Shown here one piece after another: positions 19,586 to 48,694 of a stretch of DNA of 64,000 bases. The notes below the pieces were generated by a model. It was not told the DNA's origin, searched no databases, and saw only the letters and a program-made list of their open reading frames with translations. The position numbers were made by a program, and so were the translations under genes. This DNA comes from Microbacterium sp. SL75 (GTDB taxonomy: Bacteria; Actinomycetota; Actinomycetes; Actinomycetales; Microbacteriaceae), in the NCBI RefSeq assembly GCF_026625865.1, contig NZ_CP113067.1, positions 1,054,001 through 1,118,000 on the forward strand, written 5' to 3'. Every line of letters begins with the position of its first letter. Position 1 is the first letter of the stretch.

Positions 19586-20416
19586 ATGCGGACCCGAGGC
19601 GATATCGAGTGCTGGCTGACCGACATGGACGGCGTCCTCGTCCATGAGAACACGCCCATCGCCGGGGCGTCCGAACTGCTCGCACAGTGGCGGGCCGAGG
19701 GAACCCCATTCCTCGTGCTGACGAACAACTCCATCTACACTCCGCGTGACCTCAGTGCCCGACTCCGGGCGTCCGGTCTCGTCGTGCCCGAGTCCTCGAT
19801 CTGGACCTCGGCTCTGGCCACCGCCGACTTCCTCCGGTCGCAAATGCCCGGCGGATCGGCCTTCGTCATCGGCGAGGCGGGGCTGACCACCGCCCTGCAC
19901 GAGGCGGGCTTCATCATGACCGAGACCACGCCCGACTACGTCGTCGTGGGCGAGACCCGCAATTACTCCTTCGAAGCGATCACGAAGGCGATCCGCTTCA
20001 TCCGCGGGGGCGCCCGCTTCATCGCCACGAACCCGGATGCCACGGGCCCCTCTACCGAGGGCGTGCTGCCCGCGACCGGAGCCATCGCCGCACTCATCAC
20101 CAAGGCCACGGGCAAGGAGCCGTACATCGTCGGCAAGCCGAACCCGATGATGTTCCGCTCGGCCCTCAACCGCATCGGTGCGCACAGCGAGAACACCGGC
20201 ATGATCGGCGACCGTATGGACACCGACATCGTGGCCGGCATCGAAGCCGGGCTGCACACCGTGCTCGTCATGACCGGCATCAGCGACCAGCGAGAGATCG
20301 AGCGCTACCCCTTCCGCCCCGACGAGATTCTCGGCTCGGTCGCCGAGCTCGTGCGCCAGGAGCCCCTCGAGTCCGACCTCGCCGATGGTGAGGAAGGCCT
20401 CGAAGCGGGTCTCTGA
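19586..20416 (+). CDS. HAD-IIA family phosphatase (NagD-like)
   Basis: 276 aa. Motif I is DMDGVLVHEN, motif II VLTNNS, motif III includes GKPNPMMF, and motif IV is MIGDRMDTDIVAGIEAG; this set with the intermediate C2a cap marks the NagD/PGP-type HAD subclass IIA. Substrates are likely sugar phosphates or nucleotides, not determinable here. ATG 19586 is 8 nt after TAGGCT (19573-19578), a probable leaderless promoter. The small membrane-protein gene follows after 18 nt with its own ribosome-binding site and is probably in the same transcript. Confidence 0.9.
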   Translation: MRTRGDIECWLTDMDGVLVHENTPIAGASELLAQWRAEGTPFLVLTNNSIYTPRDLSARLRASGLVVPESSIWTSALATADFLRSQMPGGSAFVIGEAGLTTALHEAGFIMTETTPDYVVVGETRNYSFEAITKAIRFIRGGARFIATNPDATGPSTEGVLPATGAIAALITKATGKEPYIVGKPNPMMFRSALNRIGAHSENTGMIGDRMDTDIVAGIEAGLHTVLVMTGISDQREIERYPFRPDEILGSVAELVRQEPLESDLADGEEGLEAGL

Positions 20417-20434
20417 CCCCGACGAGGAGACACC

Positions 20435-20590
20435 ATGGACGACCGTACGCTCTGGCTGATCGTCGCCTTCTTCATCACGGCGGGAACGCTCGTGGCCTTC
20501 ATCGTGCAGTGGCGCCGTTCGCGGCGCGGCGGCGGGCGGCGAGACCCGTTCGACGGGCCGGGCGACGGGTCGGGAGACGGGTCGGCCTGA
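20435..20590 (+). CDS. small single-pass membrane protein (51 aa)
   Basis: 51 codons from ATG 20435 to TGA 20588-20590, with GAGGAGA 6 nt upstream of the start. Residues about 7-24 (LIVAFFITAGTLVAFIVQ) form one membrane helix, followed by a very basic stretch RRSRRGGGRR and a Gly/Asp-rich tail, so the C-terminus is probably cytoplasmic. I do not recognise a family. It directly follows the HAD phosphatase and is probably co-transcribed with it. Confidence 0.6.
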   Translation: MDDRTLWLIVAFFITAGTLVAFIVQWRRSRRGGGRRDPFDGPGDGSGDGSA

Positions 20591-20672
20591 GGCGGGCCGG
20601 GCTGAGGCGGGTCGAGCGTCGGGGCGACCTGAGGCGGGTCGACCTGAGGCGGGTCATCCTGAGGCGGGTCCG
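20587..20672 (+). repeat. short tandem repeats of CTGAGGCGGGTC
   Basis: Five imperfect copies of CTGAGGCGGG(T/C)C, spaced 12-27 nt, run from the stop codon of the small membrane protein to the start of the larger array. No coding potential is evident. They may be remnants of slippage. Confidence 0.7.
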
Positions 20673-20698
20673 GCGCGGGGCGCGCCGACGCGGTCGGC

Positions 20699-21318
20699 GG
20701 CTACGCGCTGGCTGAGCGCCGGGGTGCCGGCATCCGCCATCCCCGTCACCAGAACAGGGGATGCCACCAGAACAGGACGAAACCCCACGAAACGCCCTGT
20801 TCTCGTCGCACCGCCCTGTTCTCGTAACAGCGCGGCGACGCACCCGGCGGCTGCACCCCGGCCGGGCGCCCAAGGGCCGGCATCCGCCATCTCCGTCACC
20901 AAAACAGGAGATGCCACCAGAACAGGACGAAACCCCACGAAACGCCCTGTTCTCGTCGCATCACCCTGTTCTCGTAACAACGCGACAACGCACCGACGCA
21001 CCCCGGCGGCTGCGCGCTGGCCGGGCGCCCAGGGGCCGGCATCCACCACCCCGTCACCAAAACAGGGGATGCCACCAGAACAGGACGAAACCCCACGAAA
21101 CGCCCTGTTCTCGTCGCACCACCCTGTCCTCGTAACAACGCGGCGACGCCCCGACGCACCCCGGCGGCTGCACCCCGGCCGGGCGCCCAAGAGCCGGCAT
21201 CCGCCACCCCGTCACCAGAACAGGAGACGCCACCAAAACAGGACGAAACCCCACGAAACGCCCTGTTCTCGTCGCATCACCCTGTTCTCGTAACAGCGCG
21301 TCGACCCACCGACGCACC
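20699..21318. repeat. four-copy array of ~155-bp structured repeats
   Basis: Units begin at GCCGG 20726, 20876, 21035 and 21193 (periods 150, 159, 158), with a partial unit before 20726 and a truncated fourth. Each unit holds, in order, two AGAACAGG-type sites then two CCTGTTCT-type partners (copy 1: 20751-20758, 20769-20776, 20796-20803, 20815-20822), so it can fold into a nested hairpin; the inner stem is 11 bp with a 13-nt loop. Periods are not multiples of three, which argues against coding. The array lies between the small membrane protein gene and pyrE, downstream of pyrE on its strand. Copy 2: 20901, 20919, 20946, 20965. Copy 3: 21059, 21077, 21104, 21123. Copy 4: 21217, 21235, 21262, 21281. 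Confidence 0.9.
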
Positions 21319-21346
21319 GGCCGAGGGTCCGGCGGAGCGGGACTGC

Positions 21347-21925
21347 TTACTGCGGGGCGAGGCCCAGGTCATCGAGGTCGATGGATCCCAGCCACTGCAG
21401 ACCCTCGGCCTCGATCGCTGCCTGCGCTCCGGTCTTGCGGTCGACGATGACGGCGACGGCGACGACCTCGGCACCCGCGCGGCGCAGCGCCTCGACGGCC
21501 TTGAGGGCGGACTGGCCGGTGGTCGAGGTGTCTTCGACGACGACGACGCGCTTGCCCTCGACATCGGCGCCCTCGATCTGGCGACCGCGGCCGTGGTCCT
21601 TGGGCTCTTTGCGCACGACGAACGCGTCGAGCGGGGTTCCGGCGTGCACCGACTCGTGCATGACGGCGTTGGCGATGGGGTCGGCGCCGAGCGTGAGGCC
21701 GCCGACGGCCACGACGCCGTCGAGGTCCTTCACGAGGTCCAGCACCAGACGGCCGATCGCGGGGGCGGCGCGGTGGTCGAGGGTGAGCTTGCGCATGTCG
21801 ACGTAGTACGTCGCCTTCTTGCCGCTCGAGAGGGTGAAGTCGCCGTGGAACACCGCCTCGTCCTTGATGAGGCCGATGAGGGCCTGACGGTCGGCTTCGA
21901 GCTCGGGCGTGGAGGCGGTGGTCAC
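21347..21925 (-). CDS. pyrE: orotate phosphoribosyltransferase
   Basis: 192 aa. Makes orotidine 5'-phosphate from orotate and PRPP in pyrimidine synthesis. The PRPP-binding loop VVVVEDTSTTGQSA is present, with the N-terminal FTLSSGKKATYYVDMRK segment of PyrE and the flexible-loop KEPKDHGRG. GTG 21925 is 8 nt after TAGAAT (complement of 21933-21938), so the transcript is probably leaderless. It stands alone; its 3' end faces the structured repeat array, which would form its 3' UTR if transcription continues. Divergent from exonuclease III. Confidence 0.95.
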   Translation of the reverse strand: MTTASTPELEADRQALIGLIKDEAVFHGDFTLSSGKKATYYVDMRKLTLDHRAAPAIGRLVLDLVKDLDGVVAVGGLTLGADPIANAVMHESVHAGTPLDAFVVRKEPKDHGRGRQIEGADVEGKRVVVVEDTSTTGQSALKAVEALRRAGAEVVAVAVIVDRKTGAQAAIEAEGLQWLGSIDLDDLGLAPQ

Positions 21926-21990
21926 GGCGTCGATTCTATTGCCCTGCCCCGCCGCGGACCGGGCCGCTGCGGGGCGCGGGTCTGCGGCAT

Positions 21991-22070
21991 CCGTCGTGCG
22001 GAGATTTCCCCCGACACTCCGCCCCTGCTGCGGCGAACCCGGCGCGCCGCCCGCGCACTCCGCACGACGG
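21991..22070. repeat. 13-bp inverted repeat in the pyrE/xth gap
   Basis: The 309-bp gap 21926-22234 carries the two divergent promoters and a perfect inverted pair CCGTCGTGCGGAG (21991-22003) and its complement (22058-22070), 54 bp apart. The same ends (one mismatch) recur at 37596-37608 and 37801-37813. I see no gene in the gap. Confidence 0.6.
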
Positions 22071-22234
22071 CCCACCAACCGACCCGGCACGCCGCCCGCC
22101 GTCCCGCGGAGTTCGGCCCCGGCACGCCGCCCCATCGGCGACCCGAACGGCATGTCGGCCACCGACTCCGCGCGACGGGCCGCGACCGTCTCGCCCGCGC
22201 GGCGATGTCGGCGCACGAAAGTAGGCTGGATGCC

Positions 22235-27145: not shown

Positions 27146-28284
27146 GCACCGTGACCACCGCGCAGGCACCGGCACGAAAGACCGCACCGCACCGCGCGCC
27201 CGGCGAGGTGCAGAGCATCTGGCTGGTCGCCGAGCGGGAGATCGGCTCGAAGCTGCGCAGCAAGGCATTCGTCATCTCCACCGCGATCCTCATCGTCGCC
27301 GCCCTGGCGTCGGTGCTCTGGGGCGGTTTCACCGCTTCGAACGCCAGCGGCAGCGGCATCCCCGTCGCCGTCACCTCGCAGACGCAGGGCGATGTGTCGG
27401 GCCTCGACGGACTCGAGGTGACGGTTGCCGACAGCGACGACGCCGCTCGCGCTCTCGTGGCGGACGGGACGGTGGATGCCGCCCTGATCTCGGACTCGTC
27501 GGACTCGGCGTTCGACTTCACCGTCGTGGTGAAGGACAGCGTCCCCTCGACCCTGTTGCAGATGCTGAGCGACACCCCGCCGGTCGACCGGCTCGAGCCC
27601 GGCTCGACCGCCGCCGACGTGCTGCGGTACTTCATCGCGCTGGCCTTCGGCCTCGTCTTCCTCATCGCCGCGACGACCTTCGGGGGCACCATCGCGCAGA
27701 GCGTCGTCGAAGAGAAGCAGACGCGCGTGGTCGAGATCCTCATCTCGGCGATTCCGGTGCGGGCGCTCCTGGCGGGCAAGGTGCTCGGCAACACGATCCT
27801 CGCGATGGCGCAGATCGTGCTGCTCGCCGCCGTCGCGGTCGTGGGACTCGCCGTCACCGGCCAAGCGGGGGTGCTCGACGCCCTCGGCGCCCCGATCGCG
27901 TGGTTCGCGATCTTCTTCCTCTTCGGCTTCGTGCTGCTGGCGGCGCTGTTCGCCGCGGCCGCCGCGATGGTCTCGCGGCAGGAGGACATCGGAGCGACGA
28001 CCACCCCGATCACGATGCTGATCATGGCGCCGTACTTCCTGGTGATCTTCTTCAACGACAACCCCGTCGTGTTGACGATCATGTCGTACGTGCCGTTCTC
28101 GGCTCCGGTGGGGATGCCGCTGCGCATGTACCTCGGCGACGCGCAGTGGTGGGAACCCGTGCTCTCGCTCCTCGTTCTGCTCGCCTCGTGCGTGCTCGCG
28201 ATCGGCGTCGCCGCCCGCATCTACCGCAACTCGCTGCTGCGCATGGGGGCGCGCGTCAAGCTCGGCGAGGCTCTGCGGGGCTGA
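27142..28284 (+). CDS. ABC-2 type permease (NatB-like)
   Basis: 380 aa. One helix at about residues 45-65, a ~110-residue extracytoplasmic domain with SQTQGDVSGLDGLEV, then five helices from about 165 on, matching the ABC2_membrane_3 family. GTG 27142 overlaps the ATPase stop by 4 nt and AAGGAGG lies 8 nt before it. It pairs with the ATPase at 26261 as a NatAB-like exporter; the substrate is unknown. A hairpin at 28308-28339 follows. Confidence 0.9.
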   Translation: MSTVTTAQAPARKTAPHRAPGEVQSIWLVAEREIGSKLRSKAFVISTAILIVAALASVLWGGFTASNASGSGIPVAVTSQTQGDVSGLDGLEVTVADSDDAARALVADGTVDAALISDSSDSAFDFTVVVKDSVPSTLLQMLSDTPPVDRLEPGSTAADVLRYFIALAFGLVFLIAATTFGGTIAQSVVEEKQTRVVEILISAIPVRALLAGKVLGNTILAMAQIVLLAAVAVVGLAVTGQAGVLDALGAPIAWFAIFFLFGFVLLAALFAAAAAMVSRQEDIGATTTPITMLIMAPYFLVIFFNDNPVVLTIMSYVPFSAPVGMPLRMYLGDAQWWEPVLSLLVLLASCVLAIGVAARIYRNSLLRMGARVKLGEALRG

Positions 28285-34030: not shown

Positions 34031-34189
34031 CCGACGCCGCCGCGCGCACCGGGGCCTCGCCGCCGCCGGTTGCGGACCGGCGGCTCATGGCAGACCTATA
34101 GGTTCACACGGGAACACTTCGCCGTCTCATGGCGTTCAATGGTTCGGGTCAACGGCGTCCCGGATCAGCCCTCGTTCTCAGGAGTCCCC

Positions 34190-34774
34190 ATGTCTCTCAC
34201 CCTCGACCGCACCGCCCCCACCGACGCCCCCATCCTCGACGTCCTCGCCGAGCGCTGGAGCACCCGCGTCTTCGACCCCGAGACGCCGATCGACGAGTCG
34301 GCCCTGCGGTCCGCCCTCGAGGCCGCCCGCTGGGCTCCCTCGGGTATGAACTTCCAGCCGTGGCGCTTCATCGTGGCGCGCCGGGGCACCGCCGCGCACG
34401 AGCGCGTCGTCGCCGCGTTGATGGGCTTCAACCAGGCCTGGGCTCCCGCGGCCGGCGCTCTTCTCGTCGTGCTCGCCGAGACCGAGACAGAAGACGGCGA
34501 GGCTCGTACCTGGGCTCTGTACGACAGCGGACAGGCCGCCGCCCACTTCACCGTGCAGGCGCACGCCGAGGGCCTCGCCACCCACCAGATGGGCGGCTTC
34601 GTCGCCGACGACCTGCGCGCGGCGTTCGACATCGACGCCCGCTTCACCCCCGTCACCGTGATCGCGGTGGGCGCCCTGGGCGACGTCGACGCCGCCGAAG
34701 AGGGCCTGCGTCAGCGCGAGCTCGCGCCGCGCCAGCGTCGCACGGTCGAGGAGTCGCTGCTCGTCGACGACTGA
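34190..34774 (+). CDS. nitroreductase family protein
   Basis: 194 aa. FMN-binding nitroreductase fold: ERWSTRVFDPETPIDESAL, then EAARWAPSGMNFQPWRFIVA near the N-terminus and SGQAAAHFTVQAHAEGLATHQMGGF (in two parts SGQAAAHFTVQAHA and EGLATHQMGGF) in the core. Likely reduces nitroaromatics or quinones. ATG 34190 has AGGAG 5 nt upstream. The gap from the G6PDH-like gene is 159 bp and has no strong promoter that I can identify. A strong terminator follows. Confidence 0.88.
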   Translation: MSLTLDRTAPTDAPILDVLAERWSTRVFDPETPIDESALRSALEAARWAPSGMNFQPWRFIVARRGTAAHERVVAALMGFNQAWAPAAGALLVVLAETETEDGEARTWALYDSGQAAAHFTVQAHAEGLATHQMGGFVADDLRAAFDIDARFTPVTVIAVGALGDVDAAEEGLRQRELAPRQRRTVEESLLVDD

Positions 34775-47025: not shown

Positions 47026-47184
47026 CCCGGGGAACCGTCCGGAGAACGGGCGTCGAGTTCGACACGGGGAGATCTCGGCGGAACCGCCCTGTTACCGAGG
47101 CGCACCCCTGTGTCGTCGTACCGACGGAGCAAGACGGGTGTTATCGGCCGACAGCTCGGGAGAGACCGAGAAGAAGACGGCGCG

Positions 47185-47713: not shown

Positions 47714-48694
47714 TTATCGCGCCTTGGCCATCAGGTCGGCGCGGGGGTTCTCTTTGGGCTCGAGCTCGTGGAACCGCTCGAGGGCTTCGCGAGCGGCGTC
47801 GTCGAGATGAGTGGGAACCGCGACCTGGACCTCGGCGAGCAGGTCGCCGGAGCCCTTCGCGGTCTCGATCCCGCGTCCCTTGACGCGCAGCACGCGGCCG
47901 GACGGCGTTCCGGGGGCGACGCGCAGGCGGACGGGGTCGCCCCCCAGCGTCGGCACCTCGATGGTCGCGCCCAGCGCCGCCTCGGTGAAGGTGACCGGCA
48001 CGGTGAGGCGGAGATTGAGTCCGTCCCTCGTGAACACCGGGTGCGGACGCACCGCGACGGTCACGACGATGTCGCCGCTCTCGCCGCCGTCGGGCGACTT
48101 GCGCCCTCGCCCGCGCAGACGGATCTTCTGCCCGTCCGAGACGCCGGCGGGGATCTTCACTTTGAACGGCACGTTGTCTTCGCCCGCGAGGGTGATGGTC
48201 TCGCCCTTGGCCGCGGTGACGAAGTCGAGCGTCGTCCGCGCGGTGACGTCGGCGCCCTTCTGCGGGCCGCCGAAGCCGCGGAACCCTCCGGTCGTCTGGC
48301 CGAACCGGCCGGAGCCGAAGCCGCCGCCCTGCTGGTCGAACATCGTGAAGAAGTCGTCGAAGCCGCCGGATGGCGCCTGACGCCCCTGGCCGAAGCGGCT
48401 GAAGACGTCGTCGAAGCCGCCCCCGCCCCCGGCCCCCGGAGCCGAGAAGCGCGCCCCCGAGCCCATGGCCCGGATCTGGTCGTACTCCTCGCGCTGCTCG
48501 GGGTCGTTGAGCACCGAGTAGGCCTCGCTGATCTCTTTGAACTTCGCCTCGGCCTTCGCGTCTCCCGGGTTCGAGTCGGGGTGGTACTGGCGCGCGAGCT
48601 TGCGGTACGTCTTCTTCAGATCGGCAGCGCTGACGCTCTTGTCGACACCGAGGACCTTGTAGAAGTCCTTGTCGAACCAGTCCTGACTCGCCAT
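47714..48694 (-). CDS. dnaJ: DnaJ-type co-chaperone without zinc fingers
   Basis: 326 aa. J domain with the HPD tripeptide (RQYHPDSNPGDAKAE), a Gly/Phe-rich region (FGGPQKGAD, GFDDFFTMFD), and C-terminal domains (PVFTRDGLNLRLTVPVTFTE). The Cys-rich zinc module of canonical DnaJ is missing, as in CbpA-type and some actinobacterial dnaJ1 proteins. ATG 48694 has AGGAGGA upstream. 11 nt after grpE. Confidence 0.93.
   Translation of the reverse strand: MASQDWFDKDFYKVLGVDKSVSAADLKKTYRKLARQYHPDSNPGDAKAEAKFKEISEAYSVLNDPEQREEYDQIRAMGSGARFSAPGAGGGGGFDDVFSRFGQGRQAPSGGFDDFFTMFDQQGGGFGSGRFGQTTGGFRGFGGPQKGADVTARTTLDFVTAAKGETITLAGEDNVPFKVKIPAGVSDGQKIRLRGRGRKSPDGGESGDIVVTVAVRPHPVFTRDGLNLRLTVPVTFTEAALGATIEVPTLGGDPVRLRVAPGTPSGRVLRVKGRGIETAKGSGDLLAEVQVAVPTHLDDAAREALERFHELEPKENPRADLMAKAR

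Follow-up and report, generated by a model that had tools for sequence, protein, structure and literature searches.

The gap behind a pyrE-like gene of Microbacterium sp. SL75 is occupied by an array of nested palindromes, and the locus raises the question whether these repeats form an RNA structure peculiar to the pyrE strand or belong to something more general. The locus lies within a stretch of 64,000 nucleotides that was analysed as a whole and is called the window below. The initial annotation had described a four-copy repeat array, which was borne out by two repeat finders and by direct reading (Table 1). The start-to-start spacing was 150, 158 and 158 bp by all three, so that one unit consists of an 86-bp nested palindrome and a spacer of 64 to 72 bp. 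Coordinates and letters of the variants that had been singled out, AAAACAGG at 20901, 21059 and 21235 and CCTGTCCT at 21123, were correct. The array occupies a 756-bp gap between convergent genes, with the stop of the + strand gene at 20590 and that of the - strand gene at 21347. The 3' end of pyrE points at the array and 52 bp separate the pyrE stop from copy 4. The array does lie downstream of pyrE on its strand, as had been stated, yet the gap is a convergent one and not the domain of pyrE only.

Table 1. Features of the array locus; positions are those of the window.
Feature	Position	Strand	Basis
HAD-family hydrolase gene, convergent with pyrE	19586..20416	+	gene call; PF13242, PF13344
Short ORF, 51 aa, last called + strand gene before the array	20435..20590	+	gene call
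Nested-palindrome element, copy 1	20743..20828	none	direct reading, repeat finder, model R1, folding
Spacer 1 of tandem unit, 64 bp	20829..20892	none	repeat finder, skew analysis
Nested-palindrome element, copy 2	20893..20978	none	direct reading, repeat finder, model R1, folding
Spacer 2 of tandem unit, 72 bp	20979..21050	none	repeat finder, skew analysis
Nested-palindrome element, copy 3	21051..21136	none	direct reading, repeat finder, model R1, folding
Spacer 3 of tandem unit, 72 bp	21137..21208	none	repeat finder, skew analysis
Nested-palindrome element, copy 4, nearest to pyrE	21209..21294	none	direct reading, repeat finder, model R1, folding
pyrE-like phosphoribosyltransferase gene	21347..21925	-	gene call; PF00156, E 8.4e-11

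Copy 1 matched model R1 with an E-value of 5.8e-20, a score to a model that was built including this copy. Gene calls throughout were those of a home-made HMM gene caller. For the pyrE-like gene, which carries the name given by the initial annotation, the start at 21925 was chosen, while the gene caller had set it at 22135. The 51-aa ORF was without a Pfam match; it has one hydrophobic stretch and an Arg/Gly-rich tail, and a short ORF in a similar position was called beside pyrE in the related species G006 and in M. enclense (L157, L160). Positions 20574-20682 are occupied by a GC-rich tandem repeat (GAGGCGGGTCGACCT, unit of 15 bp), which takes in the end of the short ORF and extends up to the array.

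The variants between copies had been claimed to become wobble pairs in minus-strand RNA, and at the array this held. Minus-strand RNA of copies 1 to 4 was predicted to fold at -58.5, -53.5, -55.5 and -53.1 kcal/mol (z -8.7 to -9.6), plus-strand RNA at -34.9, -28.6, -28.1 and -24.1 kcal/mol (z -3.5 to -5.1). With 200 shuffles each, a single shuffle reached the observed energy for copy 4 on the plus strand, and none did in the other seven cases. Compared in 88-nt stretches, the minus-strand RNA was 22 to 28 kcal/mol more stable than its counterpart. These predicted folds support the view that minus-strand RNA from the region behind pyrE is able to form a very stable hairpin. When inner, outer and loop-side pairs were tabulated, three positions that vary among the array's own copies (outer 6, outer 7 and inner 7) alternated between Watson-Crick and G-U pairs on the minus strand. 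The position beside the inner stem was G-U in all four copies, and the spacer pairs including the GGAG variants were paired in the minus-strand fold, as seen in the fold itself, outside the pair table. Counted over this array and its ortholog in a same-species assembly, four variable positions gave G-U on the minus strand, but inner pair 4 in the third copy of the ortholog was C-A. Because several G-U pairs are common to all array copies, the independent events are too few for a test. The stems also carry constant G-G and T-T mismatches, which fit neither strand.

The unpaired spacers of the array are A+C-rich on the plus strand as well. Of 1269 stretches in the window, the 575-bp one from 20751 had the lowest GC skew and ranked tenth from the top in AT skew. 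Since the spacers share the skew without being paired, strand-biased mutation could produce the wobble pattern without selection on RNA, and at this array it is a serious alternative to selection on RNA pairing. Transcription of pyrE is perhaps the source of such a bias.

A search for further copies, as proposed with the initial annotation, showed that the array is not unique. By BLAST and covariance model the 3.44-Mb genome contains at least 20 copies at E <=2e-5, i.e. the four of the array and 16 others, with 150 of 3448 candidates scored in the covariance scan; the next candidate had an E-value of 0.03. Two of the 16 form a tandem pair. The weakest copies look decayed, and one of them is located inside a called gene. 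Within the window, positions 47035-47119 gave a very weak model match (E 0.03), which looks like a decayed or chance copy. Local duplications, 138 to 240 bp apart, were also present at C1:2342971-2343202 of the same genome and at L055, L057, L047 and L310, so tandem multiplication appears to be recurrent.

Beyond the genome, a scan of 366 genomes of the genus with model R1 (E up to 0.01) gave matches in 228. Because at most 12 candidates per genome were scored, with rough E-values, and because model R3 matches genomes missed by R1 (e.g. G030 and G191), this number is neither complete nor free of weak matches. With R3 at E up to 1e-4, matches were found in 34 of 299 genomes (12 of 85 genera) in a sample of the family and in 22 of 396 genomes (5 of 109 genera) in a sample of the order. 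In the order sample just one genome from outside the family passed this threshold, G804 of another family of the order; its element, L303, is a near-perfect palindrome with the same 19/19/19 geometry. Contigs of GTDB contributed 17 matching stretches, from Microbacterium testaceum, M. enclense, Microbacterium sp. BH-3-3-3 and a Microbacteriaceae MAG. The array is best explained as one member of a dispersed family of nested hairpins of about 86 nt, present in Microbacterium and less densely in related genera, that was amplified in tandem.

Copies in other genomes allowed the strand asymmetry to be viewed against the family. Among 243 folded copies (one of 244 was dropped as too short or containing N) those of the array took ranks 1, 2, 4 and 6 in asymmetry, and rank 3 went to the array's ortholog in the same-species assembly. 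The array is thus an extreme outlier. In same-direction gaps the sense strand folded better in 48 of 87 copies (p=0.39) and in 28 of 54 by site group. The sense strand of these gaps had 102 G-U versus 65 A-C cells (p=0.005) or, counted as distinct events, 84 versus 59 (p=0.044), where the 87 groups behind the count were joined by similar flanks, so that tandem neighbours were joined as well. The G-U share was 0.611 as compared to 0.564 with arms swapped among all copies, and 1 of 1000 swaps was as high. This excess is weak and partly compositional. In convergent gaps G-U and A-C were equal, with 110 versus 112 cells and 93 versus 94 distinct events.

The initial annotation had read the array as a hint of a structured RNA made from the minus strand only, by read-through from pyrE and under selection for pairing. 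The far more stable minus-strand fold in four of four copies, the top asymmetry of all copies folded, the prevalence of G-U among the variable pairs on the minus strand and the weak sense-strand G-U bias in same-direction gaps speak for it. Yet the family folds without strand preference, so the strand argument failed as a general rule; the independent changes are few and include the C-A counter-example, and the spacers carry the same skew. Moreover, the lone copy beside pyrE in G006 contains an A-C pair when read on the strand of pyrE, and its two strands have nearly the same folding energy (-44.6 and -43.1). What stood of that reading is the stable minus-strand fold and its rank; as a whole we regard it as very unlikely. 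The case is a warning that strand-biased composition can give a single locus a striking wobble pattern on one strand.

Most members of the family lie immediately behind the 3' end of a gene or in the gap of a convergent gene pair. Among 182 copies, 97 were in convergent, 65 in same-direction and 8 in divergent gaps, while 10 overlapped a called gene and 2 were at a contig edge. For 62 further copies the numbers were 33 convergent, 22 same-direction and 7 divergent; one site, L264 and L103, is counted in both lists, and three pairs among the 182 share an identical 60-nt core. As a background, window gaps of at least 100 bp were 10 convergent, 12 same-direction and 10 divergent. Divergent gaps were under-represented with p=5e-5, or 1.6e-4 with all copies, as calculated with non-independent copies and a background of 32 gaps. 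The median distance from stop to element was 39 nt and 97 of 259 gene ends were within 20 nt. In same-direction gaps the element was nearer to the stop than to the next start in 54 of 65 cases, and L287 and L300 even overlapped the called 3' ends of both convergent genes. Ten proteins beside sites of the own genome were scanned against Pfam; nine had ordinary enzyme, transport or similar domains, one had no match, and no transposase was among them.

Of 16 loci of the own genome, 12 had a counterpart in another species or assembly in which the aligned flanks enclose an element at the matching position; the comparison was with loci that had been fetched for bearing an element. In 17 site groups with 240 cross-genome pairs all four blocks were equally conserved (0.92-0.95 identity), compared to 0.67 for the loop, 0.60-0.72 for the arm spacers and 0.42-0.44 for the flanks (ungapped). 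The 3' side of pyrE itself bears one element in G006, at least three in the same-species assembly, whose contig ends there, and several in M. enclense, with an unread stretch. The simplest history, as far as these comparisons suggest, would be that a single element 3' of pyrE multiplied into the array here.

The element is composed of block 1, a spacer, block 2, a 19-nt loop and the mirrored inverted blocks; the former two end with AGG and the inverted ones are of CCT type, and the loop region is itself partly self-complementary. The block pitch of 18-19 nt around the 19-nt loop is common to the copies, while the block sequences are clade-specific. The inner distance was 19 nt in 167 of 173 anchored copies and the outer one 18 or 19 with three exceptions; rows that could not be anchored were dropped (9 of 182 in the first set, 1 of 62 in the later one). 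Most copies were found with block-built models, so block conservation and geometry are biased upward; regardless, a pattern for the own genome that allowed 5-35 nt gave exactly 19 nt in 13 of 14 cases. In the window's clade, which uses the word AGAACAGG (block words were noted as AGAACAGG/CCTGTTCT), the blocks hardly vary among 34 copies. Other genomes have AGATCAGG, TCAACAGG, GCGTAGG, CAGCAGG, GCGGAGG and others, and the dialect word has often changed in all four block places together. Across genomes 33 of 39 full-hairpin pairs changed on both sides, more than in all 500 shuffles and all slid versions. These two-sided changes may reflect words switching in concert between clades.

Next to this, pairing within genomes was assayed by swapping arms between copies. 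With fixed anchors, inner arms paired with their own partner at 5.58 versus 5.52 of 7 positions for same-genome swapped arms (p=0.15) and outer arms at 5.44 versus 5.63 (p=1.0) in 137 copies. Own arms paired no better than swapped ones in most genomes tested, including that of the window. Exceptions were the inner stem of G160 (6.40 own versus 5.39 swapped, 0 of 2000 swaps) and the later set of 51 copies as a whole (inner 5.59 versus 5.30, p=0.002; outer 5.25 versus 5.10, p=0.10), with p-values uncorrected for many tests. A first swap test had indicated inner-stem coupling in many genomes; with fixed anchors this was mostly gone, because the stem centre had been set to maximise own pairing. 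The block words are constrained, as is the inner stem in some genomes. Six elements folded at z -3.5 to -12.5 on both strands, L300 at -72 and -83 kcal/mol.

With somewhat better than even confidence we view the elements, from their position and anatomy, as lineage-specific bidirectional hairpins of mRNA 3' ends, which occupy a REP-like habitat without a REP transposase. They may mark or protect mRNA ends on both strands; being palindromes they are foldable in RNA from either. The stem would stop 3'-to-5' trimming after termination or act as a terminator without a U-tract, and the element would keep convergent transcripts apart. Transcription of the element, formation of the 3' end and any protein that reads the blocks are inferred parts of this model. 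The elements share the GC-rich hairpin downstream of genes with terminators. On the other hand, no U-tract follows the stem: in the 15 nt after 259 ends the longest T run was 3 nt and T frequency was 0.08-0.14 per position. Likewise, a run of 5 T within 150 nt of the stop was seen in none of 61 window genes, and several have strong hairpins behind (e.g. 47714-48694, 27208-28284 and 34139-34774), so 3' hairpins without U look normal in this genome. In a study of M. tuberculosis transcription termination sites, hairpins were reported at 121 sites with no conserved 3' motif (PMC10937400). The strong hairpin behind genes without a U-run is alike; the source reports no shared 3' motif, while the Microbacterium family has conserved words and geometry. 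Also speaking against a 3'-end hairpin are the weak coupling of the stems, the equal conservation of all four blocks, unneeded by a pure RNA stem, and the sense strands that fold no better than antisense strands.

Some of these points would be accounted for if a sequence-specific protein, with a word preference that differs by clade, binds the four blocks in double-stranded or extruded DNA and blocks or bounds transcription or organises the chromosome, with pairing as a by-product of the inverted layout. Near invariance of the words within the window's clade, equal conservation of all four at shared sites, the fixed pitch and inner spacing, words that differ between clades in often all four places, and own arms pairing no better than swapped ones in most genomes are what such a protein would leave. 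Yet the copy-specific compensation in G160 and the later set needs pairing, the strong bias for 3' ends is unusual for a regulator, and conservation of the blocks is inflated by the block-built models. We consider this possible, if doubtful. A reading that we rate as rather unlikely is a lineage-specific 3'-end code. Here a factor of their own would recognise the four equally spaced words at gene ends, either in the DNA or in the hairpin RNA, and make ends without a U-tract in both directions; factor and words would co-evolve and so give rise to the clade dialects. How actinobacterial transcripts end with few canonical terminators is an unsettled question, and the defined sites, fixed geometry and natural dialects of the family make a sequence-read 3'-end mechanism directly testable.

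Another explanation would be a functionless repeat that some mobilising activity has spread and that is tolerated at 3' ends of genes because insertions elsewhere are harmful. The habitat of REPs, extragenic, near 3' ends and in convergent or same-direction gaps, is that of the family, and PMC3733652 describes REP, BIME and REPIN elements as interspersed palindromes by stops and convergent gaps with lineage-specific sequence, inverted repeated units and a suspected involvement in mRNA 3' ends. Such a repeat would also fit the tandem duplicates seen at several loci and the few decayed-looking copies. According to the same source a REP is a unit palindrome of 20-40 bp with a GTAG or CGTC tag at one end, and no linked RAYT is reported for CGTC REPs (PMC3733652). 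The family differs with its unit of 86 bp, four blocks of 18-19-nt pitch and 20 copies in the own genome, many at shared sites, and no unpaired GTAG or CGTC tag was seen at element ends on reading alignments A1 and A2. Against a functionless repeat are the sites shared between species or assemblies for 12 of the 16 own loci, blocks far more alike than flanks, and the want of a transposase among the ten neighbouring proteins. A RAYT (Y1 transposase) is defining for REPINs. RAYT-driven REPINs were rejected, as Y1_Tnp (PF01797) had no match in the own genome (0/1) or in 20 element-bearing genomes (0/20), with the control search positive in 5 of 14 genomes. Carriage by phage or plasmid was likewise rejected: in viral sequences the block pattern gave 0 matches and the inner-hairpin pattern 4, each inside a called gene, and one 91-bp query found no plasmid match. 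We regard a functionless repeat as decidedly unlikely. Next to negligible, in our estimate, is a DNA-uptake-type signal with species dialects that forms partly inverted pairs at gene ends. As described in PMC3630211, Neisseriaceae uptake sequences resemble the family by dialects around a short invariant core and by inverted pairs associated with terminators. The word GAGAACAGG occurred 76 times in the genome (37 outside elements and 39 inside, by hand count) and the reversed pattern 5 times; yet 76 is within Markov expectation (24, 60 and 150 for orders 2, 3 and 4, from models trained on the window and own loci, elements included). Thus the family lacks a clear excess of a single word, and its low-copy, four-block elements number in the tens, while uptake words number hundreds to thousands.

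The attC sites of integrons have four boxes in an imperfect palindrome that follows closely on a stop codon. The family is alike in both respects but scattered beside ordinary chromosomal genes rather than in cassette arrays, and the attC box consensus was absent from AGAACAGG/CCTGTTCT and the other dialects when compared by eye. A known RNA family was rejected, since a search of Rfam over 20300-22000 gave four matches with E 0.5-3.3, all far below gathering scores. No description of the element was found in literature on the element or on actinobacterial terminators, a coverage with few subscription papers, which together with Rfam agrees with the earlier statement that no described element fits. 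Another hairpin was noticed in the window: behind the - strand gene 47714-48694 lies a different palindrome, GGTTCTCGGCATCC...GGATGCCGAGAACC, which has CGAGAAC and GGATGCC in common with the element family but differs from it in geometry.
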